IMG/VR virus record: IMGVR_UViG_3300026455_000022
Location: 1 to 43,856 of that record
Reading direction: 5' to 3' (one strand)
Length of the DNA stretch: 43,856 nucleotides
Origin: a virus
Both the position numbers and the translations under genes were made by a program. Position 1 is the first letter of the stretch. Every line of letters starts with the position of its first letter. Under the pieces are notes generated by a model that was not told where the DNA came from, ran no database searches, and saw nothing but the letters and a program-made list of their open reading frames with translations. Below, piece after piece: positions 3,870 through 42,194 of this stretch.

Positions 3870-3899
3870 CGCTAGGCTAAAGCAAACGACAGAGGAACA

Positions 3900-4277: not shown

Positions 4278-4572
4278 GTAGAAATACTTTCCAGCCACAC
4301 ATCATGGCAAGGTTAAATTTTCTGGCGTCTCGTTCGTAGCCAGAGCCAGTAACATGACGGCCACGATTAAAAGTGCCACCTTGTATTTCAATGAGAGAGC
4401 GAGAAGGAAGATGTGCAAAATCGGCCCTGTAACGCTTTGATCGTTTACTTTTGGCGTAGCGCTCTTGAAAATCAGCTTCCCAAGCCTCTACATCGCTGAA
4501 TTCCCTGATCAATGAGAGATCGGGATAATGAGCCTGCCAAAGCCCGAGAAACTGATCTTCTAATGCGCTCAC
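4210..4572 (-). CDS. PD-(D/E)XK-type nuclease-like protein
   Basis: A 120-residue protein. YRADFAHLP followed by SLIEIQGG gives the D...ExQ spacing of a restriction-endonuclease fold. GYERDARKFNLAMMCGWKVFLLT is the helix-strand segment that follows in Vsr/DUF559-like nucleases. It ends convergently over the gene at 3900 and lies 3 bp downstream of the Dcd-like gene. It may take part in DNA repair, junction processing or host-DNA degradation. The fold is inferred from motif spacing, and the Gln in place of Lys leaves activity uncertain. Confidence 0.6.
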   Translation of the reverse strand: MSALEDQFLGLWQAHYPDLSLIREFSDVEAWEADFQERYAKSKRSKRYRADFAHLPSRSLIEIQGGTFNRGRHVTGSGYERDARKFNLAMMCGWKVFLLTSQTAKEIAWLEKIAAVLRMS

Positions 4573-4575
4573 GAG

Positions 4576-5160
4576 CTATACAGCAGCAAAAGCTACTTTA
4601 GCTCCTTGATTTTGATATTTACCATCGCCATAAGCGCTGGCCACATCGTTTTCCAGCTTCACGAACATCACTTGAACGATGCCTTCATTGGCATAGATGC
4701 GACATGGAAAAGCCAGGGGATTGACAATACAAATAGTGAGATGGCCAGACCAGCCAGGCTCAATTGGCGTAACGTTAATGATTGTGCCTTGACGAGCATA
4801 CGTTGACTTCCCATCTGTGATGCCCATCACATTGTTGGGCATTGAGATGCGCTCAAGGCTAACGCCTAATGCATAGGAAAAAGGCGGAAGAACGAAGAAG
4901 GTGGAGCCATTTTCCTGAACTGGCTTAGCTTCATACATCAAGCTGGCATTGAAGCTCTTCACGTCTAGAGCTTCTAGTTCTTTGTTGTTATTGATGACCA
5001 TGAAGCCTTCAGGAGAAAGGCGCAGGTCATAACCAGCATGGGATAGGCCGTAAGACAATGCTTTCGTGCCATTGTCCAGCTCGCGACGCTTCTCTCCCGT
5101 GAAAGGAAAGATAATGTCATTTTCAGCAAGAATGCTGATTTGCTTGTCGTTGAGGAGCAT
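4576..5160 (-). CDS. dcd: dCTP deaminase / dUTPase-family protein
   Basis: A 194-residue protein of the trimeric dCTP deaminase/dUTPase fold, which makes dUTP (or dUMP) for thymidylate synthesis by ThyX. Visible motifs are LSYGLSHAGYDLRL near the N-terminus, GKSTYARQG (the helix bearing the catalytic Ser/Arg), INVTPIEPGWSGHLT with the Glu-Pro-Gly-Trp-Ser-Gly core, and YGDGKYQNQ at the end. The length matches Dcd. Whether it is mono- or bifunctional cannot be read from sequence. It shares the minus-strand run with the nuclease-like gene. Confidence 0.85.
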   Translation of the reverse strand: MLLNDKQISILAENDIIFPFTGEKRRELDNGTKALSYGLSHAGYDLRLSPEGFMVINNNKELEALDVKSFNASLMYEAKPVQENGSTFFVLPPFSYALGVSLERISMPNNVMGITDGKSTYARQGTIINVTPIEPGWSGHLTICIVNPLAFPCRIYANEGIVQVMFVKLENDVASAYGDGKYQNQGAKVAFAAV

Positions 5161-5210
5161 GAAAGAAAAGGGGCGTTGCCGCCCCCAAGAAACAACGATG
5201 GAAGAAAACT

Positions 5211-5495
5211 TCAGAACAAATCGTCGTTAGACGAGGACGATGCGAAGCTGCCGCTTGCGCTCTCGCCGTTCTGCCAGAAGGAAGAATAAGCCTTGGGGCT
5301 GTTTTCCATCTTGTTGACAGTCACTTGCCCCTTGAAATGAGGGGCAGTGTCCTTGTCACGCTTGTCGTTGTTCCACAGTGCCACGCGGAAGCTGTAATTT
5401 CCTTGTGCATTGGGACCAGCCTTTTTGGCTGCATTCAGAATGTCGGGGGTGAGATCGACAGTGCCGCTGAAAACGGGAAGATTGCCAGAGGGCAT
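5211..5495 (-). CDS. Putative single-strand DNA-binding protein with acidic tail
   Basis: A 94-residue protein: a beta-rich body (FSGTVDLTP, NYSFRVALWNNDKRD, HFKGQVTVN), then a Gly/Ser linker and an acidic-aromatic tip ending NDDLF. A flexible linker with such a tip is the hallmark of SSB proteins, which recruit partners through it. The body is shorter than a classical OB fold. It lies beside the exonuclease gene and has its own promoter-like sequence and a GAGG site. The SSB role is inferred from tail and context. Confidence 0.5.
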   Translation of the reverse strand: MPSGNLPVFSGTVDLTPDILNAAKKAGPNAQGNYSFRVALWNNDKRDKDTAPHFKGQVTVNKMENSPKAYSSFWQNGESASGSFASSSSNDDLF

Positions 5496-5542
5496 GTAGT
5501 GTTCCTCAGAAGGAGAGTGGTCGGCCCTGGACGGGCTCCCTA

Positions 5543-5570
5543 AGCATAGTCACAAAACTTAATGAATCAA
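5543..5570 (-). promoter_or_regulatory. Sigma70-like promoter for the SSB-like gene
   Basis: On the minus strand, TTGATT (5565-5570) and TATGCT (5543-5548) are separated by 16 nt. The start of the SSB-like gene lies about 48 nt downstream. The -35 overlaps the stop codon of the exonuclease gene, so this would be an internal promoter of the minus-strand block. Confidence 0.45.
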
Positions 5571-6331
5571 GCTCCCCTATCCATAGAAATGGTTAAGGGG
5601 CGTCCGCCGGGATAATGCTCAAAGAAGAACTGCTGCGTCTTCTGTGCCATCACTCCTGCCTGCATGGCGAGGTCAGCGCCGTCAAGGCTGATAATTTGAG
5701 CTTCCTGGCCTTGATCAGTGTCTGGATCGTAAATAGCAATGGCGCAATGCGCCTCGCTGATCTCAATGCCATACATCTGTTCAATGGCCTGGGAATAAGC
5801 TCCGAGCTGCATCCGGTAGTCACCTAGTTGCGTGTCGGGCTTTTGCTTAAAGCTGGTCTTCCAATCGAGCAGCGCCGTTTTGCCATTGGCCATGGTGGCC
5901 AGCATGTCGAACGTGCCGGAGTAGCCAGTTTCAGTGGAGGGGCAATACCATGCGATGGCACTTTCCACCAACAAGGGGCTGGCTATGCCTGTGAGGAAGT
6001 TGGCAATGCTATCGAAATAGGGAACGAACAATGGATGGGAATCCAAATGGCAGTTAATGTCTTCGCCGTTCCAGAAATCTTCTAGGACGCCATGAAGCCA
6101 ATTGCCACGTTCTACGGCAGAGCGTGTGCGGCGATTTGCCTCTTCATCCCCGACTTTCTTTCGCCAGTTCATGAGCGCCGCAATCTTGCCAGGCGGCGAA
6201 CACGCGCTCGCAATAGTCGTCACAGAGGGCAAAACAATGCCTTCTGGGGCATTCGGAAAATCGTTTAAGACGTAATAACGACGGCGATTGATCTGCAGTC
6301 GATTGGGTTCGTACCGAGGAAGAGAAGGCAT
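5567..6331 (-). CDS. PD-(D/E)XK exonuclease (RecB/Cas4-like)
   Basis: A 254-residue protein. VERGNWLHGVLEDFW is the motif I helix of RecB-like nucleases. GYSGTFDMLA, then TALLDWKTS, gives the catalytic D...DxK. QLGAYSQAIE is the conserved QxxxY helix. Such enzymes in phages are exonucleases paired with annealing proteins, and the DUF1071-type protein at 7063 is in the same transcription unit. I chose ATG 6331 because the upstream frame only reads the previous gene's tail. The leader is pyrimidine-rich (CCCTTTC), without a Shine-Dalgarno site. Confidence 0.8.
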   Translation of the reverse strand: MPSLPRYEPNRLQINRRRYYVLNDFPNAPEGIVLPSVTTIASACSPPGKIAALMNWRKKVGDEEANRRTRSAVERGNWLHGVLEDFWNGEDINCHLDSHPLFVPYFDSIANFLTGIASPLLVESAIAWYCPSTETGYSGTFDMLATMANGKTALLDWKTSFKQKPDTQLGDYRMQLGAYSQAIEQMYGIEISEAHCAIAIYDPDTDQGQEAQIISLDGADLAMQAGVMAQKTQQFFFEHYPGGRPLTISMDRGA

Positions 6332-23408: not shown

Positions 23409-24860
23409 ATGGGACTTAAGGACAAGGCAAAATGTGAGCCAATTGCACGCACGGGAAGGGTTCAAGACTGGCTGGATAATTCCGAAAGTCGCCTGCCTGT
23501 TAGTTGCACGGTTTTCAACGTAGAAGATTCAATGGAGGGGCCAGATGGCATTGAAGCATCTTGGCGGTTTGTTAGCCACGGCTTGCGCAATGGTGCGGGG
23601 GTCGCTGTTCATTTGTCTTCTTTGCGTCCGAGGAATGCTGAAAATGGCAAAGGCTTGGTGGCAAGCGGACCAGTAAGTTTTGGCAAGATTTATTCCACGC
23701 TTAATGAAATCTTGAGAAGGGGCGGTGTATACAAAAATGGTGCGATAGTGCTGCATCTTGACTATGACTGCCCTGATGCGCTGGAATTTATTAATGCATC
23801 ACGCAGTGAACTGCCTTGGGTGAAGCGTTGCATCAATGTAGATGAGAAGTTTATTGAGAATAGTTCTCAAGAATTTATTGATGCATTGCTGAAAGGAATT
23901 GGCAATGGTGATATTTGGTTGAACAAAATTCGTTTCAATGCAAAAGGCGAACGCATTCGGGCGAATGTATGTTTAGAAGTTTATCTTCCACATCGCGGCA
24001 CTTGTTTGCTGCAGCACGTCAATCTTGGCGCCTGTAGTTTTGAAAATTTGCAAGGTGCTTTCGTTGAAGGCATGACGCAACTTTGCGAGCTTCATCCTTC
24101 TACTGGCGTTGGTGACACTGGAGAATATCTTTCTCCCACCATTGACAAACAAATTGGTCTGGGCGTGCTCGGCCTGGCTAATTTCCTGGCCATCCATGGC
24201 ATTAGCTACGAAGATTTTGGCTATGCATTGAATGCATTCCTTGCTGAGGATCCTCGTGCATGGTTTGAACAATGGAAAGACACCGTAGCTGGTGAAGCGG
24301 TGTGGCAAATGGATCAGGGTATTCAGAAAGCTGCTGAAATTGCCCGCGAGCATGGCATGGAGCGTGCGTTCTGTATTGCCCCCACTGCATCGTGCTCCTA
24401 TCGCTATCTCGATACTCGCGGCTTTACCACTGCTCCTGAAATTGCCCCTCCCATTGGCCGCATTGTTGATCGTGACAGCGGCACGTTTGGCGTGGAAAGC
24501 TTTGATTATGGCGATGTGGAAATTGCTGCTGAAGTTGGCTGGGCGAACTATAAGCGCGTTGCTGATGGCATTGTTTCGCTTTATCAACGCACTGGGCTTT
24601 TCCATGGTTATTCGTTTAATTCATGGAGTGATATGGTCATTTACGACGAAGCATTCCTTCGTGATTGGCTAGAATCTTCACAGACGAGCCTCTATTACAG
24701 CCTGCAAGTCCTGCCTGATACTCAGCGCAAGGACGATGCATACGCTGCATTGGACGACGATTTTAAGAGCATGTTTGGCTTAGACGAAGAGTCTGAAGCT
24801 GATGAATCTTCTGCGTCTTGCAATTTAGAGGCTGGCTTTTGCGCTGCTTGCGCTGAATAA
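23409..24860 (+). CDS. nrdA: Ribonucleotide reductase class I alpha subunit, compact form
   Basis: A 483-residue protein, far shorter than the usual 700 or more, with no N-terminal ATP cone. It keeps the catalytic core: Cys33 (RLPVSC), ANVCLE (Asn186, Cys188, Glu190), APTASCSYRY, the tyrosine pair in SLYYSLQ used for radical transfer to a class I partner, and a C-terminal CAAC pair (Cys478, Cys481) for re-reduction. It makes deoxynucleotides for phage replication. The beta gene follows after a hairpin. Loss of the ATP cone suggests no dATP shut-off at that site. Confidence 0.85.
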   Translation: MGLKDKAKCEPIARTGRVQDWLDNSESRLPVSCTVFNVEDSMEGPDGIEASWRFVSHGLRNGAGVAVHLSSLRPRNAENGKGLVASGPVSFGKIYSTLNEILRRGGVYKNGAIVLHLDYDCPDALEFINASRSELPWVKRCINVDEKFIENSSQEFIDALLKGIGNGDIWLNKIRFNAKGERIRANVCLEVYLPHRGTCLLQHVNLGACSFENLQGAFVEGMTQLCELHPSTGVGDTGEYLSPTIDKQIGLGVLGLANFLAIHGISYEDFGYALNAFLAEDPRAWFEQWKDTVAGEAVWQMDQGIQKAAEIAREHGMERAFCIAPTASCSYRYLDTRGFTTAPEIAPPIGRIVDRDSGTFGVESFDYGDVEIAAEVGWANYKRVADGIVSLYQRTGLFHGYSFNSWSDMVIYDEAFLRDWLESSQTSLYYSLQVLPDTQRKDDAYAALDDDFKSMFGLDEESEADESSASCNLEAGFCAACAE

Positions 24861-26813: not shown

Positions 26814-26903
26814 GATGGTTCCCGATGATGCGCGGTCCCGTTCCGTACCGTGCGAGTCATGCACTCCATCGCTGGAGCGAACGTCCTTTCAGCTTAGCAT
26901 GAT

Positions 26904-26992
26904 GCCCTTGGTGGGATTTGAACCCACATGGGAAAGACTGTGTTCCCTACGGCTTTTAAGGCCGTTGCATAAACCAGTTCTGCTACAAGGGC
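26904..26992 (-). tRNA. trnL-UAA: tRNA-Leu (anticodon UAA)
   Basis: An 89-nt complete cloverleaf on the minus strand: acceptor GCCCTTG / CAAGGGC, anticodon stem ACGGC / GCCGT around loop CTTAAAA (anticodon TAA, U33 present), a long variable arm GGGAACACAGTCTTTCCC typical of Leu, and T-arm GTGGG-TTCAAAT-CCCAC. No CCA is encoded in the acceptor. It should read UUA/UUG codons. Confidence 0.93.
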
Positions 26993-29411: not shown

Positions 29412-31289
29412 TTGGTTATGGAAGGCGAAGCAATTGATTTAGGGCATGCCACTGCAGGTGGAGTGCGTGCAGATGGCCTTCAGAACGTACTGATTGGCAT
29501 GGGAACTGGCCGCGACAAGAGCCAGTACACCAAAACCACTGCGACTGTTTTCCTGCCGCAAGAAGATCTTGAAAATCTCTATGGCGAATGGTTACCTCGC
29601 CGCATTGTCGATATTTATGCAGATCAAGCCACGCGAAAAGGTTTTAAGGTGCTGTTTGGTGGTGAAGGCGTAAGAGCCGAAGAAGTACAGGGCATTGAGC
29701 AAACAATTGAAGATCTTTATATTCTTGAAAATTTAAATCTTGCAGCAAAAAATTCCCGCCTTTACGGAGGAGCTTGTCTGTTGCTCTTTATTGACGATGG
29801 GCGTCCCGCTTATATGCCTGTCGATAAACGTAACATCCGTCGCATTGAAGAAATTGAATGTCTCGATCGATGGCAAATTGCCCCAGTTATCAACGAAGAA
29901 AACTTATACGACTATTCAAAAGCCACGTATTATCAGATTATTTCTGGAGATCTAATTAACGAACAAACGCTGTCTTACATTCATAAGGATAGGATTTTGC
30001 GTTTTGATGGAGACTGGCTCCCTTATCGCGTGAGGCAGCGTAATTATGGATGGGGTATGAGCAGTTTACAAACTATTTATGACAGCTTCCGTCATTATTG
30101 GACTGGCCTTAATTCTGCAGCAACGCTTCTCACTGAGTTTGATATTTTTGTTCACAAGGTGAGGGGCTTGGCGGCAATGCTTGCTGCTGGCAAGGAAAGC
30201 TCCATTCGTGATCGTTTGCAAGTGAACGATATGAGCAAGAGCATCTATCGCGGCTATGCGATTGATGCAGAGAAGGAAGAGCTGGAATTTATTAGTCGTA
30301 ACTTTGGCGGCATTGGAGAAGTGTTGGAGAAGCTGCGCGTTGACATTATTGGCGCTAGCAAAATTCCCCATACCGTGCTGTTTGGCGAAAGCCCTGGTGG
30401 GCTTGGCTCCACTGGTCGCAGCGAAGAACGTGATTTTGCGAAGACGCTGGCCGATTATCAGAGCGTGCATTTCAAGCGGCCAATGAAGAAGCTGATGGAA
30501 TACATCATGCTGAGCAAAGAAGGTCCGACACAAGGAAAACTGCCTGAGTCATGGCGCATCTCCTTCAATCCATTGTTTGAATTGAATGAGCGTGAAATGG
30601 CTGACGTGCGTGCGCGTGTGGCAGCCGTGGATGGTCGTTACATCCAGCTTGGCGTGCTGAGTCCCAAGGAAGTAGCTGATGCACGTTATGGGGGCTCTGA
30701 GTGGTCAATGGAGCTTACTTTGGATCCGACTGTTGTTCGCGAGCTGCCCCAAGCCGCAGGTTCCACTCAAGGTGGGGGTGGCTCCACCCAAGGACGGGGT
30801 GGTTTTGCTGTTCCTCCAGGTGGGCGTGATCCATTAGACGAGGAAAACGGCACACTTCCCATGGATGGCAGCAGGGATGTTGAAGATAGTGCAGGTCTTT
30901 ATCTCCCACGCGATCTGGAGAAGATCCGTGGAGACGTGGAATTTACGGACAAAGACTTACACCAGCAGGCAATTGCATCAGCAAAGGCCAAATTCAAAGA
31001 ATGGCCAAGTGCAGTTGCAGGAGCTTATGTGACGCGCAAGTACAAAGACTTATACAAGCGTAAGCATGGCTCTATGGAAGGTGCATTCAAGGGCAAGAAA
31101 ACTACCGCCGAATATTTCAAGGAGGATGCGATTGATCCACTAAAAACCAGTGGTCTTATTCTTGCTGATATTGACGAGGCTTCTCTCATTGACGAAGAAG
31201 ACATTTCTGCTGCATTGAATCAGTGGAAAGAAGAAGCGCCTGAGCGTTTCAAAGATATCTTGGAGGCAGAGGATGTCCAGCCTCAATGA
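29412..31289 (+). CDS. Portal protein (DUF1073-like) with extra C-terminal domain
   Basis: A 625-residue protein. Residues about 40-440 fit the portal core: YGEWLPRRIVDIYADQATRKGF, SRLYGGACLLLFID, RILRFDGDWLPY, IPHTVLFGESPGGLGSTGRSEERDFAKTLADYQ. A Gly/Ser/Gln linker (GSTQGGGGSTQGRGG, near 450) leads to a tail with KFKEWPSAVAGAYVTRKYKDLYKRKHG, a small basic (W)PSA...KYK domain I have seen elsewhere in phages. It is the head vertex and DNA channel. Overlaps the next gene by 17 bp. Confidence 0.88.
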   Translation: MVMEGEAIDLGHATAGGVRADGLQNVLIGMGTGRDKSQYTKTTATVFLPQEDLENLYGEWLPRRIVDIYADQATRKGFKVLFGGEGVRAEEVQGIEQTIEDLYILENLNLAAKNSRLYGGACLLLFIDDGRPAYMPVDKRNIRRIEEIECLDRWQIAPVINEENLYDYSKATYYQIISGDLINEQTLSYIHKDRILRFDGDWLPYRVRQRNYGWGMSSLQTIYDSFRHYWTGLNSAATLLTEFDIFVHKVRGLAAMLAAGKESSIRDRLQVNDMSKSIYRGYAIDAEKEELEFISRNFGGIGEVLEKLRVDIIGASKIPHTVLFGESPGGLGSTGRSEERDFAKTLADYQSVHFKRPMKKLMEYIMLSKEGPTQGKLPESWRISFNPLFELNEREMADVRARVAAVDGRYIQLGVLSPKEVADARYGGSEWSMELTLDPTVVRELPQAAGSTQGGGGSTQGRGGFAVPPGGRDPLDEENGTLPMDGSRDVEDSAGLYLPRDLEKIRGDVEFTDKDLHQQAIASAKAKFKEWPSAVAGAYVTRKYKDLYKRKHGSMEGAFKGKKTTAEYFKEDAIDPLKTSGLILADIDEASLIDEEDISAALNQWKEEAPERFKDILEAEDVQPQ

Positions 31290-31954: not shown

Positions 31955-32680
31955 ATGGATGTTTTAGTGGGCAGCACTGGCCTGATTGGCACCGTGCTTC
32001 GTGAGCACCATGATTTTGACTGCCGTTTCAATTCCGAAAACATCCACCTAGCTCCATTGTTGAAAGAGGATATTGATACGCTTTACCTGGCGTGCTTACC
32101 GGCGGAGAAATGGAAGGCAAATCAGGCGCCAATGGCTGATTTTGACAATATGTACCACGTGTTGTCAAAGATGAGACTATGGAAACCGAAGGAGATTATT
32201 CTCTATTCGACTATTGATATTTATAGTCAAACCTATAAATACGTGCAAGATTTTCCGGAACTGCATGCTATTGATTATGGCTCTGTTCGCTACATCTTTG
32301 AGCTACTAGTGAAGCAAACATTTCCCGACGCCATTGTTACCATTATTCGCCTTCCGGCGTTGTTTCATAGGCGCATTAAAAAGAATGCTTTATTTGACTT
32401 GTTGAATCGGCACAATGTAGAGAAAATTAACGCTAATTCTTGTTATCAATGGTACGACTTAAGTGATCTGTGGACAGATACCGAAGCATGCGAAAAAGGA
32501 CGAAACCACCAATGGTTTTCGTCTCCCATCGAAACATTAGAAATTATTGACAAATGGTTCCCATGGGCCAGAACAGAAGTTGATTGCAGCACTCGCATTG
32601 AATACAATTACGGGCCTTATTTTGCTAGCAAGGAAACAATTATGAAAAAGATGGAGGCTTTTATTAATGCTTGGAATTAG
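31955..32680 (+). CDS. NAD-dependent epimerase/dehydratase-like protein
   Basis: A 241-residue short-chain dehydrogenase-like protein. VLVGSTGLIGTVL is the Rossmann glycine motif, YSTIDIYS the Ser/Thr strand, and YGSVRYIFE gives a YxxxR in place of the usual YxxxK, so catalytic activity may be altered. First gene of the carbohydrate island. Probably acts on a nucleotide sugar. Confidence 0.65.
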   Translation: MDVLVGSTGLIGTVLREHHDFDCRFNSENIHLAPLLKEDIDTLYLACLPAEKWKANQAPMADFDNMYHVLSKMRLWKPKEIILYSTIDIYSQTYKYVQDFPELHAIDYGSVRYIFELLVKQTFPDAIVTIIRLPALFHRRIKKNALFDLLNRHNVEKINANSCYQWYDLSDLWTDTEACEKGRNHQWFSSPIETLEIIDKWFPWARTEVDCSTRIEYNYGPYFASKETIMKKMEAFINAWN

Positions 32681-33407
32681 TGCTATCGGCTGGAACGATG
32701 AAGAAGAAGAGCAAATTTTGAGCGCTAATGCTGGCGCTTTTAATGTACTGGAAATCATTCCGGCTCGCATTTTTGCTCAAAACAAAGACTACGCAGATAT
32801 GGCCAAAGAATATAGAGAGCGCTATGGACTATGGGCGTATTCAGCGCAAGCATTATTCTTTCAAAGCAATGTGCAAAGCTTTGAAGACACGACTGCTGTG
32901 TCCGAGCATTTATTGCGCGTGATTAGCCTTGGTTCTCTGATGGGGATCAAACGTTTTGTTTTGGGAAGCCCGAATTTGCGCAAGGGGAGTCCATCATGCT
33001 TGATGAATGTTTTAAAGCGCATGGATGCAGTGCTGGAAGCGAACGATGCCATCCTTTGCATTGAACCTGTAGCAAGATGCTATGGAGGATCTTATTTCTT
33101 TACAGTCAGCGAGATTGTTAATCATATTGATTTCTGTAATCTCAAGAACGTTAAAACAATGCTAGACACAAATAATGCATGGTTACAAGGAGACAGTCCC
33201 AAGAAACTTTTAAATCATTACTGGCCTTACATTGCCCATGTTCATATTAGTGATACAGACAACGGACCCCTATTAAATAAATACGAGCACATGCAAATTA
33301 AGAAGATGCTCGATGGAATTAATTATGAAGGCGCTATTGTTCGTGAGCTGTTTCAAGCGAAAAAGTATATGCGCGATTATCCATTGTTCCGGAGCATTTA
33401 CGCTTGA
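32667..33407 (+). CDS. Sugar isomerase/epimerase-like TIM barrel
   Basis: A 246-residue protein of the xylose-isomerase-like AP endonuclease 2 superfamily. FNVLEIIPAR, LWAYSAQALFF, RFVLGSPN, ILCIEPVA, TMLDTNNAWL, IAHVHISD and GAIVRELF mark the successive strands, with the metal-ligand Glu, Asp, His and Glu at strand ends. Overlaps the upstream gene by 14 bp. Likely converts a sugar or sugar phosphate. Confidence 0.7.
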   Translation: MLGISAIGWNDEEEEQILSANAGAFNVLEIIPARIFAQNKDYADMAKEYRERYGLWAYSAQALFFQSNVQSFEDTTAVSEHLLRVISLGSLMGIKRFVLGSPNLRKGSPSCLMNVLKRMDAVLEANDAILCIEPVARCYGGSYFFTVSEIVNHIDFCNLKNVKTMLDTNNAWLQGDSPKKLLNHYWPYIAHVHISDTDNGPLLNKYEHMQIKKMLDGINYEGAIVRELFQAKKYMRDYPLFRSIYA

Positions 33408-34378
33408 TCTAGTGCATCATTTACCATTTTTTCAATGGTATAAATACCTTGAATTTTGCCGGTATAAAACGAGAGAAGATTGCCATGCTGCCTAAAAATT
33501 GGCGTACGTTGAGCGCTGGCATTCTTACTTTTAGCTTTAATCGATACCACCGGAAAAACATATTTTAAGTGATCTTCGAAATCAGGCCAATAACGCACCA
33601 CGTGATCTTCCATTAATTGACGGTGGGTGGTGAGCTTGCCGTAATTATTACCGAAAGAATGAACATTTTTTGTTTCTATAACACCAAGACTTACATGGCT
33701 TAAAGAAAACATCGATGAGCCATATGGATAGATGGAGAATAGATTGCCATCAATGAAAGTAATAGCGCCAAATGGGAGCGTTTTAAGGGGGCGATAAATA
33801 AACATTACAACTGCTTCAAAATAATCACCGTCCCTAGGGGGCAGCAAAGCATTATTAGTGCAATCAAAAACAAAGTCATAGTCTTGCTGCAATAATTCCA
33901 ATGAGCCATTGCTAATTTCTTCGCGCCGAACAATGGGAAGCAATAATTCGTCAAAATGTTTTCCAGTGGCCGTTGGCGAAATGTATTTCTCAATAGTGTG
34001 CATCACCATGGACGTGTGATTTAGCAAGCCTGCGTCTGCTTCTGCATGAGGCCAGTCTTTAAAAATCAAGCGAATAGTGTCTGCATCCAACAGGCTCTCA
34101 TCTTCTGAAACTGCATAGAAATTATTATTGATGTTTTCTGTTAGATGGCCGTAGTCCATCATGAAGCGTTCAAATGTATTTTTACACAGCATGCGCGTGG
34201 CATGATTTCTGGCATAGTGGTAGCCATAGTGCAGTCTATTTTGATTGATAAGCGATGTTTCAGAAATGAGCGTTTCATTGCGCTCAAATAATGTCACATC
34301 AGCTTCATTCATAAAGCGCGAAGCCAAATGGCATCCAGTCCATCCGCCGCCAATAATTGCAATCTTGAGCGCCATCAA
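33398..34378 (-). CDS. FAD-dependent oxidoreductase
   Basis: A 326-residue protein. IAIIGGGWTGCHLASRF is the dinucleotide-binding GxGxxG with VTLFER as the second strand Glu. NQNRLHYGYHYARN is a conserved FAD/substrate segment. The C-terminus (FYTGKIQGIYTIEKMV) fits the closing FAD motif. Resembles UDP-sugar mutase or DAO-type enzymes. It is on the minus strand, convergent with the TIM-barrel gene (10-bp overlap). Confidence 0.7.
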   Translation of the reverse strand: MMALKIAIIGGGWTGCHLASRFMNEADVTLFERNETLISETSLINQNRLHYGYHYARNHATRMLCKNTFERFMMDYGHLTENINNNFYAVSEDESLLDADTIRLIFKDWPHAEADAGLLNHTSMVMHTIEKYISPTATGKHFDELLLPIVRREEISNGSLELLQQDYDFVFDCTNNALLPPRDGDYFEAVVMFIYRPLKTLPFGAITFIDGNLFSIYPYGSSMFSLSHVSLGVIETKNVHSFGNNYGKLTTHRQLMEDHVVRYWPDFEDHLKYVFPVVSIKAKSKNASAQRTPIFRQHGNLLSFYTGKIQGIYTIEKMVNDALDQA

Positions 34379-35064
34379 ATGTCAATACAAAGCGTTGGCT
34401 GTACTCCTTGCCAATTTGACTTGGCTTTAAACAGGTCCAACTGTGGGAAGTATTCTATGCGCCGAGACATGCCAGTTCCATACATATCAGCATGCCCTTG
34501 ATAATTCCATTCATCAGGGCCATGCTTATCGGGGTGGTAAAGGCCGGCAGGTGAATCCTGTAGCTTCCAAAGCATGTAGTCTTCATTCGGCACTCCCCAT
34601 TGCTTCCATGCTTGCAACGCCGGTGGCGAGCTGTCCATGTTCTTAATTGCCGTGAGACGGTCTTTGTGGCGCATGAGATAGTCCATGCCGTAAAGGCCAA
34701 TGCTCATTGATGGTGTGTGCTTCATCGCCACCTTCTCAAAGCCTTCCGGAGGTTCATAGACCAGACTTTTAAACGCTGGTCCAGCAATGCACGTGTCATG
34801 CAAGAGAAACCAGAAGGAACTAGTCAACTTATGCTCAACAATTTCAATGAGCGGAGTATATTCAAAGGAATTTTGTGGGGTGCAGATCATTGGTACATCA
34901 CCATAATGATCAATGCGCCAGTCCTCGCATCCACCATTGACGATCAAAATTTCGCTTGTACCAATACCAGCGCGAGTAAGAGAAGGGATAATGACGGGAA
35001 GTGTATAAGCTGCAAAACGCTGGCATGTACTGATACAAAAGCGCACAGAAGATGGTGGTAGCAT
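34375..35064 (-). CDS. Glycosyltransferase-like protein (GT-A type)
   Basis: A 229-residue protein. RFCISTCQRFAAYTLPVIIPSLTRAG, EILIVNGGCEDW, FEYTPLIEIVEH and FWFLLHDTC give the GT-A order, with HD in place of a DxD. ATG 35064 follows AGGAGA and is preferred over the longer frame. ATGA-coupled to the oxidoreductase gene. Confidence 0.55.
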   Translation of the reverse strand: MLPPSSVRFCISTCQRFAAYTLPVIIPSLTRAGIGTSEILIVNGGCEDWRIDHYGDVPMICTPQNSFEYTPLIEIVEHKLTSSFWFLLHDTCIAGPAFKSLVYEPPEGFEKVAMKHTPSMSIGLYGMDYLMRHKDRLTAIKNMDSSPPALQAWKQWGVPNEDYMLWKLQDSPAGLYHPDKHGPDEWNYQGHADMYGTGMSRRIEYFPQLDLFKAKSNWQGVQPTLCIDI

Positions 35065-35126
35065 GATTCTCTCCTTGTGCCGTAAGTATAGAAGCTGTTT
35101 ATGATGACGAAGATTTCTGGGAAACC

Positions 35127-36350
35127 ATGGCAAAAATTCTTTATTGCGGAGACGCTTTTGTAGAAACTGGTTTTGGGCGGGTCGCTCAGTATTTGCTGCC
35201 GGCGCTAGCCAAGGAACATGATGTGGCGGTGCTAGCAGTCAATTACCATGGCGACCCGCATTCAGAAGCACAGAAATACAGGGTATATCCTGCAATGTTG
35301 CATGGTTCCGATCCATTTGGTTCTCATCGGATTAATGAAATTATTCAAAGAGAAAAGCCAGACCTGGTTTGGGTGACGAATGATATTTGGATTGCCATTA
35401 GCCTTTGGCAGAAAGCCAAATCCTTGCAAGAACAAATCCCTTTCAAGTGGTTTGTTTATACGCCCATTGATTCTTATGGTCTATTTCCTGAGCTGAAAAG
35501 CCAGATGGAAGGGTGGGATGGTCTTGCCACATACACGCAATTTGCCGAAAAAGAACTTCGTCTAATGGGATATGATAAGCCCATTGATATTATTGGGCAT
35601 GGTACTGATTTTGATAAATTTTTCCCACTTGATAAGCAGCAATGCCGAAAAGATTTAGGGATTCCCGCTGATGCATTTGTTGTTTTCAATGGGAACAGGA
35701 ATCAGCCACGCAAGCGCATTGATTTGACAATCAAGGCATTTATCAAGTTTGCCAAAGACAAGGACGATGCTCGCCTTTGGTTGAATATGGGCAGCAAAGA
35801 CATGGGATGGGACTTAATTCCATTATTTAAGCGGGTAGCTCGCGACGAAGGGTTTGACGCCACCGGGAAACTGATTATTACTAGCCCTCATTTCTCCACT
35901 GAAAACTGCCTGCCAGTTGAGCAATTAAATAAAGTGTATAACGCAGTTGACATTGGCTTGAATACATGCATTGGTGAAGGTTGGGGGTTGGTTAATACAG
36001 AACATGGATCAGTGGGTGTGACGCAAGTTGTACCAGATCATACAAGCCTGGCGGAGATCTTTGATGAGCTTCCCCGTATTCAGTGCAATGCTTACGAAAC
36101 AGACAGAAACTATGGTCTTGAGCGTCCTCTTCCTGACCCGGAAAGTGCTGCAGAGATTTTGTCTTATTACTATGAGAACCGCGATGCACTGAGAAAGGAT
36201 GGGAAATGGTGCTACAAGCGTCTGCGAGAAGATTTCTGCACGTGGCCTTATATTCAAGGGCAATTGCTTGACGCGGTAGAACGCACTCTTAATACAAAGT
36301 CTGCCGCGACTGAATTCAAAGGTTTTGATACTCCTGCAAAAATTATTTGA
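35127..36350 (+). CDS. Glycosyltransferase, GT4-like (GT-B fold)
   Basis: A 407-residue protein. GFGRVAQYLLPALAKEHDVAVLA is the N-terminal domain, FVVFNGNRNQPRKRIDLTIKAF the start of the C-terminal domain (with donor-binding R/K), and GEGWGLVNTEHGSVGVTQVVPDH the E-x7-E donor site. It transfers a sugar from a nucleotide donor. Starts divergently from the GT-A gene, 62 bp away. Confidence 0.85.
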   Translation: MAKILYCGDAFVETGFGRVAQYLLPALAKEHDVAVLAVNYHGDPHSEAQKYRVYPAMLHGSDPFGSHRINEIIQREKPDLVWVTNDIWIAISLWQKAKSLQEQIPFKWFVYTPIDSYGLFPELKSQMEGWDGLATYTQFAEKELRLMGYDKPIDIIGHGTDFDKFFPLDKQQCRKDLGIPADAFVVFNGNRNQPRKRIDLTIKAFIKFAKDKDDARLWLNMGSKDMGWDLIPLFKRVARDEGFDATGKLIITSPHFSTENCLPVEQLNKVYNAVDIGLNTCIGEGWGLVNTEHGSVGVTQVVPDHTSLAEIFDELPRIQCNAYETDRNYGLERPLPDPESAAEILSYYYENRDALRKDGKWCYKRLREDFCTWPYIQGQLLDAVERTLNTKSAATEFKGFDTPAKII

Positions 36351-36352
36351 TT

Positions 36353-37069
36353 ATGCAAATTTCACAAATCTTTCTTTCCACTGATCCAACGGAAAAGCTT
36401 AGTCCATTTTTGGAACACGCCACGGGCACTATTGATGCTTGTTTCCCTGAAGCAAAGCATGTTATTTACAACAATGATTCGCTTCGCGCTTTCATTGCTG
36501 ATAATTACGAAGAAGAAGTGTTGTGGGCATATGATACGCTTAAGCCCTTCTCTTACAAGGCAGATCTTGGTCGTTTTTGTTTGTTGAACAAGCTGGGCGG
36601 CTGGTATTTTGATATTGGCATTAGGGCCTTTAATGCAGTGGAACTTGGCGATCGTATTAAGTTTCTTGCTTTCCGTGATATTCAGCGCTTTAGTTACACA
36701 AGCTGGGCGTGTGCAACTACAGTGCTTTATTCTCAGCCCGACAATCCCGCTTTGCAAACTGCCATTGAGATGATTGTGGCAAATTGCGTAGAACAATACT
36801 ATGGCATCACTCCATTGTGCCCCACTGGTCCTACATTGTTAGGTAAAGCCTTGGCGGCGAACGGAAGCCAAGCTGATTTTATCTATGGCGATTATCTTGA
36901 ACTAACGCCTACGCATGGACAAAAGAATAGGGCCTTTGTGCTTCCCGATGGCACAATCATGGCATGGAGTAAGCCTGCTGGTGGTGGTGACTTAACTGGA
37001 CTTGGCGCCAAGGGCGTCAACAATTACAATGAGCTGTGGCAGGCCCGCAAGGTGTATGGCGATGGTTGA
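36353..37069 (+). CDS. Glycosyltransferase, GT32-like (DXD sugar-transferase family)
   Basis: A 238-residue protein. PFSYKADLGRFCLLNKLGGWYFDIG is the classic donor-binding block of the capsular/TcdA-like transferases, with DIG in place of DxD. PLCPTGPTLLGKAL is the downstream motif. ATG 36353 overlaps no upstream sequence, while TTG 36347 does. Probably adds a sugar to the same glycan. Confidence 0.75.
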   Translation: MQISQIFLSTDPTEKLSPFLEHATGTIDACFPEAKHVIYNNDSLRAFIADNYEEEVLWAYDTLKPFSYKADLGRFCLLNKLGGWYFDIGIRAFNAVELGDRIKFLAFRDIQRFSYTSWACATTVLYSQPDNPALQTAIEMIVANCVEQYYGITPLCPTGPTLLGKALAANGSQADFIYGDYLELTPTHGQKNRAFVLPDGTIMAWSKPAGGGDLTGLGAKGVNNYNELWQARKVYGDG

Positions 37070-37772
37070 TAGCACCATTTATGCGGTATGCATCCCAGGG
37101 GAGAAAGTGCGTTACACGGCCAGGTCTCGCATTGTTCCCATTATGGGAGGAAGCCACGTGCTGAGCAAAGAAGAGCGCGAAAGTCTTCGTGCCGAAGGTT
37201 ATGCTTTTGACGATGAAAATGCCGTGCTGTCTCCATTAAATGATCGATGGGGAGAGCTTTCGTGCGTGCATTGGATGATTCTTAATGCAAAAGAAAACAA
37301 TATTGGCAATGCTCAATATCGGCGCAATTGGCTAGAACCGGAAGATCAATGGTATTGCCCAGAAACTTTGTATGTGCCAGAACCAGCTCAATTTTCTTGT
37401 ACGCTTGAACAACAGTTTTATGGTGGCCATTCTGCTTTTGATGCACCAGTAATTACGCGCAAATTAGCAGACGAAGGCAAGTGGATTTTTACTCGCGAAG
37501 AAATTGATAAAATCTGGGCGCAATCTTCTTTCATCGGCTGCAATATGGCACGCGGACCGAGGCAGGCCTACCTGCGCTTCATGACAACACTATTTGCTGG
37601 ACTTGCACCAATTTGGCGCGAACACAAAGAACACTTTCTTTCCATTGAAGGCTATGACAAACGTGCAATTGCGTTCATTGCCGAACGCTTGATTACTGGT
37701 ATGGTTTTATGCAGAGACAGGATTTTTCCTGGCGTAAAAATTGCCACTGCTCCGATAGGATTTATTAATTGA
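37062..37772 (+). CDS. DUF4422-like glycosyltransferase
   Basis: A 236-residue protein. LNDRWGELSCVHWMILNAKENNIGNAQYRRNW is the DUF4422 hallmark (EL...W...N.....G..(H/Q)YRR). The C-terminus (IAFIAERLITGMVLCRD) also fits. These are putative glycosyltransferases in surface-polysaccharide loci. Overlaps the upstream gene by 8 bp. Last gene of the island. Confidence 0.7.
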   Translation: MVDSTIYAVCIPGEKVRYTARSRIVPIMGGSHVLSKEERESLRAEGYAFDDENAVLSPLNDRWGELSCVHWMILNAKENNIGNAQYRRNWLEPEDQWYCPETLYVPEPAQFSCTLEQQFYGGHSAFDAPVITRKLADEGKWIFTREEIDKIWAQSSFIGCNMARGPRQAYLRFMTTLFAGLAPIWREHKEHFLSIEGYDKRAIAFIAERLITGMVLCRDRIFPGVKIATAPIGFIN

Positions 37773-37786
37773 TCGGCTGCAAATCG

Positions 37787-38476
37787 ATGGAATGTCCATT
37801 AGAAATTATTGACGCTAGTGCAAACAAAACAAATCATCGCTTTGCCATTGCTAATGCAATGCTTGGGCCAGCTAATCCATCGCTACCCAACACTGCTTAT
37901 TGGCAAGAACTAGCTAAACGTTGGGAAGTTGGCCTGTCAGATGCCTTGGCTCGTCGATGCAATAATTGCGAGCATTACATTGATACTGCAGTCATTCAGA
38001 ATTGCATTCAAAGGCATGGTCGGTTTGATATTACTAGTCTTGGTTCCGAATTTAAAGACATGAAAGATGCAAGTGGCTATTGCACGTTGTATCACATTAC
38101 TTGTACAGCCAGTCGTGTATGTGTAGACTGGGAAGAAGGCGGTCCAATTACAACTACCAAAGAAGGTGCCATGGCTATCGAAAATGAAGGGCGCGAAGAC
38201 GCTAAAAAAATGAGCGCGAAGCAAAAGAAAATTGCAAAAGTGATGCGCGAATTTAAGGCTGGTACTTTGAAGGGCAGTGACAAAAAGCCAATCAAGAATA
38301 AAAAACAAGCCATTGCTATTGCCCTCTCGGAAGCTGGCATGAGTCGCATGAACAAAAGCGATGAGTATTGGGATGCCTATGTTGACACCATGATGTGCAT
38401 GGAAGTTGAAGACCCTGAAGAAGAAGGCATGGGAAGCATGAAAACTGAAGACGGTTCCTGCGGAAAAAAGCGCTAA
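37787..38476 (+). CDS. Cys-rich and DUF6496-like head-region protein; frameshift donor
   Basis: A 229-residue protein. Residues about 60-115 have CNNCEHY, CIQRHG, GYCTLYHITC and CVDWEEGG, a six-Cys cluster that could bind metal, with a spacing loosely like high-potential iron-sulfur proteins. Residues about 145-190 (KIAKVMREFKAGTLKGSDKKPIKNKKQAIAIALSEAG) match the DUF6496 pattern. It ends GKKR at a slippery site that allows -1 shift into the next ORF. ATG 37787 is chosen over TTG 37769. Confidence 0.7.
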   Translation: MECPLEIIDASANKTNHRFAIANAMLGPANPSLPNTAYWQELAKRWEVGLSDALARRCNNCEHYIDTAVIQNCIQRHGRFDITSLGSEFKDMKDASGYCTLYHITCTASRVCVDWEEGGPITTTKEGAMAIENEGREDAKKMSAKQKKIAKVMREFKAGTLKGSDKKPIKNKKQAIAIALSEAGMSRMNKSDEYWDAYVDTMMCMEVEDPEEEGMGSMKTEDGSCGKKR

Positions 38477-38502
38477 GGGGTGATGCTGGAAGCTTTGCCC
38501 CT
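38464..38502 (+). promoter_or_regulatory. Candidate -1 programmed frameshift signal
   Basis: Slippery heptamer A-AAA-AAG at 38464-38470 lies in the correct zero frame, two codons before the TAA. After a 5-nt spacer a hairpin follows: AGGGG (38476-38480) with CCCCT (38498-38502) and an inner GCT/AGC. Slippage by -1 joins the ORF at 37787 to the one ending at 38823. Confidence 0.6.
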
Positions 38503-38823
38503 CCTGCTGCTGTTCGATCTGCTGCCCGTCGTGGCTTAGAGCTACGCAAGAAATATGGCAAAGGAGGCTTGACGACGCAAGAAGCGGGCAAGCAGGGCAT
38601 TGGCAGTGGCGTGGCGAGAGCTACAAGTCTGGCCAATGGAGAGAATGTGAGCTATGAGACAATCAAGCGCATGGCCGCATTCTTCTCTCGCCATGAAAAG
38701 AATAAGAGTGGCGAAGAAGATGATGCTGGAAAAATTGCATGGGATTTATGGGGCGGCGATGCTGGTAGGGCGTGGGCAAATCGCATTATTAAGATGGTAG
38801 AAAATCGCAAAAAAGACCAATGA
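38470..38823 (+). CDS. Downstream ORF reached by -1 frameshift
   Basis: 117 codons in the -1 frame relative to the preceding gene. AARRGLELRKKYGKGG, GSGVARATSLANGENVS, TIKRMAAFFSRHEKNK and GKIAWDLWGGDAGRAWA match a small phage domain I recognise from head-gene regions. The conserved part begins about 20 residues before the only possible independent start (TTG 38569), and no ATG or GTG lies in frame, so frameshifting is the simplest route. A sequencing or real indel is the alternative. Confidence 0.65.
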   Translation, partial: ALRGDAGSFAPPAAVRSAARRGLELRKKYGKGGLTTQEAGKQGIGSGVARATSLANGENVSYETIKRMAAFFSRHEKNKSGEEDDAGKIAWDLWGGDAGRAWANRIIKMVENRKKDQ

Positions 38824-39131
38824 GCGAATATGTGCGCGTCATCGAAGAAGAGGACGAAGGTATTGGTCTTTTAAAGGCGCTTTCAATTCTTTCTGCCAAT
38901 GAACATCGCAATACTTCACGATGGGAATTGGTCGAAAAGCAATGCTTCAAAAATGGTCGGCTAGATGAAACACACATTTATGTGATGAGCGTTTACGAGA
39001 AGCCCGACCCTCATTTTGAGCCGACAAAGTTCTTGACTTTTGAAATTGAGGCAATGGCAAAGTCCTACATTATGGAAGACATTGAGCATCAACTTGCCAG
39101 TATTCGCGGCGAAGACGACGACGAGGATTGA
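38820..39131 (+). CDS. Hypothetical protein
   Basis: A 103-residue acidic protein starting MSEYVRVIEEEDEG, alternating helix and strand (HIYVMSVYEKPD, KFLTFEIEAMAKSYI), ending in a DDDED tail. ATGA-coupled to the frameshift ORF. Function unknown. Confidence 0.6.
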   Translation: MSEYVRVIEEEDEGIGLLKALSILSANEHRNTSRWELVEKQCFKNGRLDETHIYVMSVYEKPDPHFEPTKFLTFEIEAMAKSYIMEDIEHQLASIRGEDDDED

Positions 39132-39169: not shown

Positions 39170-39448
39170 CTAATTGATTTTTGCGATGAAAGATGGATAG
39201 CCCATCAGCCACAACACGCTAATTCCATAGAGACCACTGAGAGTGCGAATCTGTACGCAATCTGGCGGGGCGGTGCCCTTCTCAATGCGGCAATAAGAAC
39301 TTTGACTGATGTGCAGTTCTTTTGCCACATCATGCTGAGTGAGTCCGGCATTTAGCCGGGCTTCTTTAATGCGACCAGCAATAAGAATGCGTGCTTCCTG
39401 GTGGGGAAGTTTAAGAGCATCCGTTGCACTACGCGCCAAAAACATCAC
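39170..39448 (-). CDS. XRE-family HTH regulator
   Basis: A 92-residue protein. Residues about 25-80 are a classic HTH_3: IKEARLNAGLTQHDVAKELHISQSSYCRIEKGTAPP then IRTLSGLYGIS. It binds DNA as a repressor or activator. It is the only minus-strand gene among the head genes and is divergent from the protease/scaffold gene, whose promoter it probably controls. Confidence 0.8.
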   Translation of the reverse strand: MMFLARSATDALKLPHQEARILIAGRIKEARLNAGLTQHDVAKELHISQSSYCRIEKGTAPPDCVQIRTLSGLYGISVLWLMGYPSFIAKIN

Positions 39449-39507: not shown

Positions 39508-40707
39508 ATGAATATGAGCACCATTTCTTGCCGATACGATTTCTCTCCTATTGAGAAATACGAACTCACGCCAGAAGGTTATCTTCGGGCATGGGCTTCT
39601 ATCGCACGCACTGGCATCCAGCATTACACAGATAGTGATGGTTCCATTCGTCGCGAATATCGTCCCGAGACAGAAGTGGCGTCTCCCGAAAGCCTTGCTT
39701 CATTTGCGGGCAAGGCAATCACTTCGGAACACCCCCCTGTGCTTCTCGATTCCGAGAATACTAAAGACTACCAAGTAGGATTTAGTGGCACTGAAGTGGT
39801 ATACGACAATGGTTTCGTGAAGGCAGTGATGACAATCACTGACGAAGATACCATTAAGCGCATCATGAAGGGGGATGCTCGTGAGGTAAGCGCGGGCTAT
39901 AGGGTGAATTATGATCCCACGCCCGGCGTTACAGAAAACGGCGAACATTACGATGGTATCCAAAAAGAAATCATCGGTAATCACATCGCTGTTGTCCGCC
40001 GGGGCCGCGCTGGCCCGCAAGTGAAGCTCCATCTTGATCGCCAAGATGCTGCTGACCCATCTTTAATCTCTAATACAGGAGACCATCTAATGACTGCAAA
40101 AGTCGTTTTTGATGGCGCCGAGTTTGAAGTGACGGAGAGCGTTGCTCTTGCGATCACTAAAGAACGTGAAGACGCCAAGATGTCCTACGAGGACATGAAG
40201 AAAAAGTACGACGAACTGCAGGCCGCTGCCGATTCCATGAAGTCCGAAATGGATGCTATGGGAAAGGAAATGCAAGGCAAGTGCGATTCCGCTGAGGGTC
40301 GTGCTGATGCACTGGCTGAGCAGATCGAAGAACTGAAGACTGAACTGGCTGCCGCCAAGGAAATCAATCTTGATTCCCTGGTTAAAGAGCGCGTGGCTCT
40401 CGTTGAGAAAGCCAAGCCTGTTCTGGATAGCGCCTATGAATTCGCTGGCAAAACTGCCCGTGAAGTGATGGTTGATTCCATCAAGGCAGTGCGTGGTGAT
40501 GAGCTTGATCTCTCTGAGAAGAGCGATGACTACGTGCAGGCAATGTTTGACACTCTCTCTGAGGGCCGTTCTGACTCTGCCACCACCGACGAGCTGCGCA
40601 AAGCCGTAGCTTCCATTGCTTCTCCTGTTTCTGCACCCTCTGCCTATATGGACATGCTGCAGAATGCATGGAAGAAGCCCCTTTCCATCTCCAAGGAGGC
40701 TAAGTAA
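39508..40707 (+). CDS. Prohead protease fused to scaffold (DUF2213-like)
   Basis: A 399-residue protein. Residues 1-190 fit the DUF2213 protease: YLRAWASIARTGIQHY, GKAITSEHPP with the catalytic-type His, DAREVSAGYR with Ser, and G.....IVVRRGRAG-like NHIAVVRRGRAG. Residues about 195-400 are a charged coiled coil (MKKKYDELQAAADSMKSEMDAM) typical of scaffold. It processes and shapes the prohead. An internal start at 40090 can make scaffold alone. Confidence 0.8.
   Translation: MNMSTISCRYDFSPIEKYELTPEGYLRAWASIARTGIQHYTDSDGSIRREYRPETEVASPESLASFAGKAITSEHPPVLLDSENTKDYQVGFSGTEVVYDNGFVKAVMTITDEDTIKRIMKGDAREVSAGYRVNYDPTPGVTENGEHYDGIQKEIIGNHIAVVRRGRAGPQVKLHLDRQDAADPSLISNTGDHLMTAKVVFDGAEFEVTESVALAITKEREDAKMSYEDMKKKYDELQAAADSMKSEMDAMGKEMQGKCDSAEGRADALAEQIEELKTELAAAKEINLDSLVKERVALVEKAKPVLDSAYEFAGKTAREVMVDSIKAVRGDELDLSEKSDDYVQAMFDTLSEGRSDSATTDELRKAVASIASPVSAPSAYMDMLQNAWKKPLSISKEAK
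40090..40707 (+). CDS. Nested scaffold protein from internal start
   Basis: ATG 40090 is in frame within the protease gene and preceded by AGGAGA at 40077-40082, about 8 nt away. It would give a 205-residue protein starting MTAKVVFDGAEF, containing exactly the coiled-coil scaffold part. Protease-scaffold nesting of this kind is well known (lambda C/Nu3). Confidence 0.55.
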   Translation: MTAKVVFDGAEFEVTESVALAITKEREDAKMSYEDMKKKYDELQAAADSMKSEMDAMGKEMQGKCDSAEGRADALAEQIEELKTELAAAKEINLDSLVKERVALVEKAKPVLDSAYEFAGKTAREVMVDSIKAVRGDELDLSEKSDDYVQAMFDTLSEGRSDSATTDELRKAVASIASPVSAPSAYMDMLQNAWKKPLSISKEAK

Positions 40708-40709
40708 TC

Positions 40710-41270
40710 ATGGCCGTAACTTTCTCTGCTTCGGGCACTGCCTCCGCTGGTGGCGTGCAACAGAGCTACGCTCTGGAGCACACCGCACTGCTGGAAGGTC
40801 AACTGTCCGATATTCGCAGCAACACCATTGGCACTAGCGTCAATGAAACTGGTGCTGTCGTGGCTTTTGGTAACGTTGTTGTTTATAACAACGCTGGTAC
40901 TGTTGAAAATTCCGCTTGCACTATCTCGGGCGCTTCCGATACCGTGCTTGGCGTAAACGTGCTCACCTATGTTGATGAAACCGCCCTGGACACCAATAGC
41001 CGTCCTGGCGTGAAGAATCAGCAGGTGATGAACGTGGCCAACGAAGGCGCAGTGGCCGTCTATGTGACCGGCGCTGTAACTCCTAAGAGCCCCGTGCGTG
41101 TGCTGTATTCCGCCAGTGGCACTGGCAAGGCTGGTCAGTTTTCGCATGCTTTTGCTTCTGGCAAGACCGTTCGCCTCGCTGGCGCACGCTTCCTGAGCAC
41201 CACCACTTCCAGCGGCATTGCAATTCTGGAGCTGAATGGCCCCAGCTTTACTCTTTCCGCTGATTCTTGA
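40710..41270 (+). CDS. Head decoration-like protein (DUF2190-type)
   Basis: A 186-residue protein, beta-rich, Gly/Ala/Val/Thr-heavy (GTASAGGVQQSYALEH, AVVAFGNVVVYNNAGT, AVYVTGAVTPKSPVRV). It sits between scaffold and capsid where decoration proteins lie, and resembles DUF2190 proteins. AAGGAGG precedes ATG. Codon use is that of a highly expressed late gene. Confidence 0.6.
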   Translation: MAVTFSASGTASAGGVQQSYALEHTALLEGQLSDIRSNTIGTSVNETGAVVAFGNVVVYNNAGTVENSACTISGASDTVLGVNVLTYVDETALDTNSRPGVKNQQVMNVANEGAVAVYVTGAVTPKSPVRVLYSASGTGKAGQFSHAFASGKTVRLAGARFLSTTTSSGIAILELNGPSFTLSADS

Positions 41271-41285
41271 TAGGAGGCCCTAACA

Positions 41286-42194
41286 ATGTCTGAATTCCGT
41301 ATGGATGACGCGGGTCTGTTCCTTGAGCGTCAGCTTGAGTACATCCGCCCCCAAGTGTTTGAAGTGCAGTATGCGGATATTAAGTATCCGACCATTCTGC
41401 CTGTTACCAGTGAAGCTGGCCCTGGCGCTCAGACCTTCACTTACCGCATCATGGACTCCACTGGTGAGTTCAAGCTGATCGCTGATGCTGCTGATGATCT
41501 GCCCCGTGCTGACATCAGCCAGACCGAGAAGAGCATCAACATCCGCTCCTTCGGTGGTTCCTTCGGTTATACCGTGCAGGAACTGCGTGCCGCTCAGATG
41601 GCCAACATCGCTCTGGAGCAGCGTCGTGCTGCTGCTGTGCGTCGTGCCTATGAAGAGAAGGTGGAAGAAGTGGCCCTGTTCGGTGAGAGCACCGTGGGTC
41701 TTTCCGGTTTCTTCAACAACTCCACCGTGGATGTTGTGGCCGCTGATAAGTGGTTCACCACTGCAAGCATCACCGCCCAGGAAATGCTTGAGCTGCTGAA
41801 CTATGGCGTGACTGCCATTATCAATGGCTCCAAAATGAAGGAGCAGCCCGACACTATCCTCATGGCTTATGAGGATTACAACAAGGTGAGCACCACTCGC
41901 AACTCCGACTCCTCGGATGTGACCGTGCTGGAATACTTCCTGCGCACCAACCCCTACATCCGCAATGTTGAGCCCATCAACCAACTGGATGCTGATAACA
42001 GCGTGCTGAACACCAACCGCATGGTTGTGTATAAGCGCGATCCCGAGAAAGTGCAACTGCACATTCCTCAGCCCCTGGAACTCTTCCCGCCCCAACAGCG
42101 CGGCCTTGAGTTCATCGTTCCCGCTCATGCTCGCGTGGGTGGCGTGGCTCTGTACTATCCCAAGAGCGTTATCTACGTTCAGGCTTCTAGCTGA
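41286..42194 (+). CDS. Major capsid protein (DUF2184-like)
   Basis: A 302-residue protein. LEYIRPQVFEVQYADIKYPTILPV, TFTYRIMDSTGEFKLIADAADDLPRADI, FGGSFGYTVQELRAAQ, NVEPINQLDAD and PLELFPPQQRGLEFIVPAHARVGGVALYYP match the DUF2184 HK97-fold capsid family. AGGAGG lies before ATG. It builds the icosahedral head. Confidence 0.85.
   Translation: MSEFRMDDAGLFLERQLEYIRPQVFEVQYADIKYPTILPVTSEAGPGAQTFTYRIMDSTGEFKLIADAADDLPRADISQTEKSINIRSFGGSFGYTVQELRAAQMANIALEQRRAAAVRRAYEEKVEEVALFGESTVGLSGFFNNSTVDVVAADKWFTTASITAQEMLELLNYGVTAIINGSKMKEQPDTILMAYEDYNKVSTTRNSDSSDVTVLEYFLRTNPYIRNVEPINQLDADNSVLNTNRMVVYKRDPEKVQLHIPQPLELFPPQQRGLEFIVPAHARVGGVALYYPKSVIYVQASS

Follow-up and report, generated by a model that had tools for sequence, protein, structure and literature searches.

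Between two head-region genes of the virus analyzed here, ribosomes very probably undergo a programmed -1 frameshift like that of dnaX, which is predicted to yield a short DUF6496 protein together with a DUF6496-GRAWA fusion. The sequence is an IMG/VR virus record of 43,856 bases, which is referred to in full as the window. Three observations lead us to propose a conserved frameshift that makes a fusion with the GRAWA-type domain (phrog_2859): (i) the slippery heptamer is conserved, (ii) the bases of the downstream stem covary, and (iii) the stem has decayed in loci where the two genes are fused. The functionality of the signal is strongly supported by this comparison of homologues. The mechanism class itself, -1 frameshifting, is already well known.

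The slip site and its surroundings

The elements of the putative signal and the two reading frames are as follows:

37769-38476, plus strand: zero-frame ORF of 235 aa, with a Cys-rich N-terminal part, DUF6496 and an acidic tail, and with the end GKKR-stop
38210-38473, plus strand: DUF6496 part, the whole zero-frame product in S-CBS4 and most relatives
38464-38470, plus strand: slippery heptamer A_AAA_AAG; X_XXA_AAG stands at the equivalent place in 107 of 107 frameshift-class loci
38471-38475, plus strand: spacer CGCTA of 5 nt, by direct reading
38474-38476, plus strand: zero-frame stop TAA, one codon past the heptamer (0-1 codons past it in the 107 loci)
38476-38502, plus strand: predicted stimulatory hairpin with an 8-bp stem, AGGGGUGA/UUUGCCCCU (fold z -2.2; covariation; loss in in-frame fusions)
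38470-38823, plus strand: -1-frame ORF with the GRAWA domain (phrog_2859, E 1.2e-20; 78% identity to S-CBS4)

Direct reading of the letters gives GGA-AAA-AAG-CGC-TAA in the frame of the upstream ORF, and the coordinates that the earlier note had assigned to the in-frame heptamer, the 5-nt spacer, the stop and the hairpin proved exact. The listed start of this ORF is a TTG, the true start being uncertain. The -1 frame begins GCG CTA AGG GGT and, as had been claimed, stays open until the TGA at 38821-38823, which adds 117 residues past the shift and gives a predicted fusion of about 351 aa. The claim that the second domain begins upstream of any usable start also holds: the first ATG, GTG or TTG of the -1 frame is the TTG at 38569, 33 codons into the conserved domain, and none upstream of the domain is usable.

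A scan of both strands of the whole window found the site at 38464-38470 to be the only one of its kind. Since 0.33 such sites are expected by chance per random strand, the site is weak evidence within the window alone; the window proving little by itself, the case for a frameshift was decided by the comparison of homologues. No Rfam family covers the slip site.

Conservation of the heptamer in homologous loci

The homologous loci were fetched by scans of IMG/VR with the -1-frame GRAWA protein, a query that does not select for the signal. The resulting set comprises 130 distinct loci from IMG/VR and phage S-CBS4. X_XXA_AAG is present in frame in 107 of them (72 AAAAAAG, 29 GGGAAAG and 6 CCCAAAG), and the zero-frame stop follows one codon past the heptamer in 96 of the 107 and immediately in 11. 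The earlier note had proposed comparing the heptamer across related phages; these 107 loci keep not only the heptamer but also the stop and the covarying stem. It had further held that a single uninterrupted frame in relatives would speak against a frameshift. Such frames do occur, in 20 of the 130 loci, but there they join the same two domains, DUF6496 and GRAWA, and the heptamer and hairpin have been lost.

The remaining three loci are all explicable. L116 has an imperfect, near-slippery heptamer (G_AAA_AAG), L293 is a fused gene ended by a contig edge, and L382 (approximately positions 1988-2036) keeps both heptamer and stem but has its zero-frame stop five codons on, inside the hairpin. 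The last of these offers a natural test of whether proximity of the stop matters. Within the 107, L078 and L151 were counted by their local signature, yet an insertion or deletion next to their A-run shifts DUF6496 into a different frame, so that 105 loci are clean. After clustering at 85% identity, 56 frameshift groups and 6 fused groups remain.

The base ahead of the P-site codon is the last one of the codon before it, and in each of the three heptamer versions it is invariably identical to the two bases that follow. In trees built without the slip-site columns, the version switches at least 15 or at least 17 times, depending on the tree, and the X_XXA_AAG rule is never broken. Placement of the GGG heptamers in a single clade is rejected (p-AU 2e-87), as is a single clade of fused loci (p-AU 0.0003), which are polyphyletic; the fused state was gained or reverted more than once.

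This diversity bears on two explanations that dispense with ribosomal slippage. That the gene is truly continuous and that its six-A run contains an indel from assembly or sequencing is practically out of the question. A homopolymer is indeed present, fused relatives are known, and L078 and L151 resemble local indels; however, the same frame break recurs in S-CBS4 and in some 107 distinct loci, and the GGGAAAG and CCCAAAG sites contain no homopolymer. Two further loci (L004 and L005) match the window exactly in the -1-frame domain and the heptamer region; they come from IMG datasets with different numbers, and their A-run is the same. For the family, an indel is refuted. Transcriptional slippage on the A-run, which would create an mRNA subpopulation of altered length, is very improbable as well. 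In its favor, most loci have six As and one (L272) has eight. Against it, slippage of this kind has been reported for runs of more than seven As (PMC3711429), the 29 GGGAAAG and 6 CCCAAAG loci lack a long enough run, and neither the phase of X_XXA_AAG nor a stop-adjacent stem would be required. Since the GGG and CCC heptamers offer no homopolymer able to cause transcriptional slippage, they indicate tandem re-pairing of tRNAs.

Scans of genome contigs returned one metagenome-assembled contig and nothing else. A contig (L391, NYTN01000090.1), binned into a Rhodobiaceae metagenome-assembled genome, is apparently a 12,725-base IMG/VR virus contig of the group; its placement is possibly a binning error or possibly a real host link.

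The same arrangement in Synechococcus phage S-CBS4

S-CBS4 is the sole phage record with DNA similarity across this stretch. It is an independently sequenced isolate with an arrangement equal to that of the window, and its gene order matches: glycosyltransferases, two small frames, a further small gene, an opposite-strand repressor, the protease and the capsid genes. Its slip site reads A_AAA_AAG GGC TAA and is followed by the stem GGGGCGA/UUCGCCCC. The DUF6496 part of the window protein is 64% identical to gp018 of S-CBS4. The -1-frame proteins share 78% identity, and their alignment sets in within two residues of the slip site. The S-CBS4 annotation lists two genes, the second of which (gp019) starts at a GTG inside the domain.

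Covariation and decay of the downstream stem

In the window, the stem, with inner GCU/AGC, pairs exactly over 38476-38502. It sets in 5 nt past the heptamer, and its outer pair uses the last base of the zero-frame stop. The hairpin has a predicted energy of -15.0 kcal/mol, and comparison with shuffles gives z -2.2. When a longer stretch of 107 nt is folded, no excess stability is seen (z 0.05), and for this reason no larger structure or pseudoknot is claimed.

Among 74 distinct sequences, 97.5% of the stem cells are paired, compared with 54-69% in slid registers. Double changes in the stem number 28 versus 12.6 in shuffles, and none of 500 shuffles scored as high, although these figures ignore the relatedness of the loci, which inflates shuffle tests. 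The middle pair couples the synonymous base of a Gly codon to the choice between Ala and Ser: GGA occurs with Ser UCC, and GGC or GGU mostly with Ala GCC. Asp GAC occurs with Val GUC, and pairing is kept across two amino-acid changes.

The GGGG/CCCC stem is kept in the 107 loci with X_XXA_AAG. All seven inner pairs are intact in 95 of these and in 1 of the 20 fused loci (Fisher p 1.4e-13, a figure that likewise takes no account of relatedness); the pair at columns 18/34 is missing in 12 of the 107, which counts against a frameshift. The Arg codon at the site is AGG in 107/107 frameshift loci versus 6/20 fused loci, in which any of six codons stands there, and no consensus hairpin was found at the equivalent place in the fused loci. 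The Gly/Ala/Ser and Asp/Val pairing and the decay of the stem in fusions do not depend on relatedness alone. Covarying in the frameshift loci and decaying where the genes are fused, the hairpin appears to be under selection. No clear enrichment of a Shine-Dalgarno-like stimulator was found upstream of the heptamer in 88 loci: SD-like 5-mers occur in 26 of them at 5-17 nt upstream and in 27 at 20-32 nt, with Glu-rich codons as a confounder.

These features also have to be explained if the two proteins come from separate genes, in which case ribosomes would begin GRAWA at an initiation codon of its own, through re-initiation or coupling behind the DUF6496 stop, and no frameshift would occur. This arrangement is improbable. 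It accords with the annotated GTG start of gp019 and with the start codon, usually TTG or GTG, that 33 of 90 frameshift loci have farther upstream in this frame, but the other 57 have no start ahead of domain codon 10, and the first start in the window falls inside the domain. Moreover, protein conservation begins right at the slip site, and X_XXA_AAG, the covarying stem and their loss in fused relatives would be left unexplained. Neither sequencing error nor transcriptional slippage nor independent starts fit the data well.

The proteins joined by the proposed frameshift

The partners had been named in the earlier note as a DUF6496-like protein and a GRAWA-type domain, and the profile searches agree. 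The zero-frame protein matches DUF6496 (PF20106) over residues 151-189 with E 5.2e-7 and a score of 30.4 bits, above the Pfam gathering cut-off of 24, and 31 of 33 aligned members match the same family. In the window protein, a Cys-rich N-terminal part precedes DUF6496. The GRAWA domain corresponds to phrog_2859; it has no Pfam match and no meaningful NCBIfam match, and the PDB contains neither a sequence relative nor a matching fold (best E 2.8). An AlphaFold model of the in-frame fusion is helical, with a mean pLDDT of 81 and a pTM of 0.55, the latter making the mutual placement of the domains unsure.

Elsewhere, GRAWA is an in-frame part of larger proteins whose annotations are prohead protease, portal, ParB or Dps. 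Its carriers, identified by sequence and predicted fold, include the protease-capsid polyprotein of Roseobacter CRP-811, where GRAWA is N-terminal and accompanied by prohead protease and capsid, as well as Limnohabitans DC31 and prohead proteases in BFVD. GRAWA is a widespread head-region domain. The CRP-811 locus (L236, positions 3444-5894) is a single gene of 816 aa that encodes GRAWA, a TUDOR-like domain, prohead protease and a capsid domain.

Gene neighborhood

The flanking genes include:

38820-39131, plus strand: next gene, with a start that overlaps the -1-frame stop (ATGA)
39508-40707, plus strand: head maturation protease/scaffold (DUF2213, phrog_530)
40710-41270, plus strand: capsid cement protein (PF22758)
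41286-42194, plus strand: major capsid protein (PF09950, phrog_264)
29412-31289, plus strand: portal protein (PF06381, phrog_146)

In 120 of the 130 loci, the stop codon of the -1 frame shares bases with the start codon of the following gene (ATGA or GTGA), which is consistent with translational coupling to that gene.

Several other genes of the window were recorded. An HTH repressor-like gene (39170-39448, minus strand) separates the small head-region genes from the protease, and the S-CBS4 repressor is equivalently placed. An apparently non-structural cassette at 31955-37772 splits the portal-side from the capsid-side head genes; it contains a xylose-isomerase-like TIM barrel, a possible FAD oxidoreductase, glycosyltransferases and DUF4422. 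Farther away are a ribonucleotide-reductase-like protein of 483 aa (23409-24860) whose match to the barrel-domain profile is confined to the profile's first ~100 residues, a phage tRNA-Leu with anticodon TAA (26903-26992, minus strand), and a possible lysis enzyme with glucosaminidase and L,D-transpeptidase (YkuD) domains (575-1519, minus strand).

Comparison with known frameshifts

Among the closest known cases is E. coli dnaX, where -1 frameshifting occurs at A_AAA_AAG with a stem-loop (PMC5009743, PMC3711429): the heptamer is identical, a stem-loop lies a few nucleotides downstream, and a zero- or shifted-frame stop is nearby. The genes are unrelated, however; the dnaX frameshift product is the shorter one (gamma), whereas here it would be a longer fusion, and no Shine-Dalgarno stimulator is clearly conserved upstream.

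Tail assembly chaperones G/GT of tailed phages also use a -1 frameshift, with in-frame fusions in T4-like phages (PMC10885494). As is proposed here, the shift gives a short and a C-terminally extended protein in a phage morphogenesis operon, and relatives with in-frame fusions exist. The genes described here differ in being DUF6496 and phrog_2859 instead of tail genes, and in lying between glycosyltransferases and the protease-cement-capsid genes instead of ahead of the tape measure gene.

Frameshifts in capsid proteins are known for gene 10 of T7/T3, Lactobacillus phage A2, and Listeria phages A118, A500 and PSA (PMC5009743). Like the proposed shift, they add a C-terminal domain in the head region that elsewhere can be joined in frame, and indifference between the two ways of joining has been noted for Ig-like domains (PMC5009743). 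Here, in contrast, the major capsid protein is separate from the zero-frame product, and the extension is predicted to be all-helical rather than Ig-like. Other GRAWA proteins have the domain in frame within a larger protein, whereas here it would be reached by a frameshift and joined to DUF6496.

Described phage frameshifts include those of tail chaperones and of major capsid or tail proteins. In the open-access papers that our search covered, subscription journals being outside it, no frameshift was found for S-CBS4-like phages or for the DUF6496/GRAWA gene pair, and none of these papers mentions DUF6496.

Proposed mechanism and implications

Ribosomes translating the Cys-rich/DUF6496 gene would reach X_XXA_AAG, where the P- and A-site tRNAs would re-pair one base back under stimulation by the stem-loop 5 nt downstream. 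A fraction of ribosomes would then bypass the adjacent zero-frame stop and read on into the GRAWA domain. Two products would result, the short DUF6496 protein and the DUF6496-GRAWA fusion, in a ratio fixed by slip efficiency, and the shifted ribosomes may also arrive at the ATGA overlap where the next gene starts. The sequences themselves show conservation, covariation and replacement by in-frame fusion; slippage in host cells, and its efficiency, we infer.

Gene position and domain associations suggest that the fusion may be a minor component of the prohead or of virion assembly. Since phages with the fused gene make the long form only, it is probably the fusion that is required, and the short form may be dispensable or regulatory. 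A more speculative and rather unlikely proposal is that GRAWA serves as a module, attached to various cargoes (protease, portal, ParB, Dps), that targets them to the prohead or virion; the frameshift would then set the tagged fraction of DUF6496 carried into the head, coupled to translation of the next gene.

With the DUF6496/GRAWA pair, one more gene family joins the few known conserved phage frameshifts; it belongs neither to the tail chaperones nor to the capsid genes, and the S-CBS4-related virus group that carries it is aquatic and widespread. Gene callers split this frame or cut the second protein short, as happened in S-CBS4. The proposed frameshift is unusually well documented through natural controls, and because different phages join the same proteins by frameshift or in frame, the need for two products versus one becomes testable.
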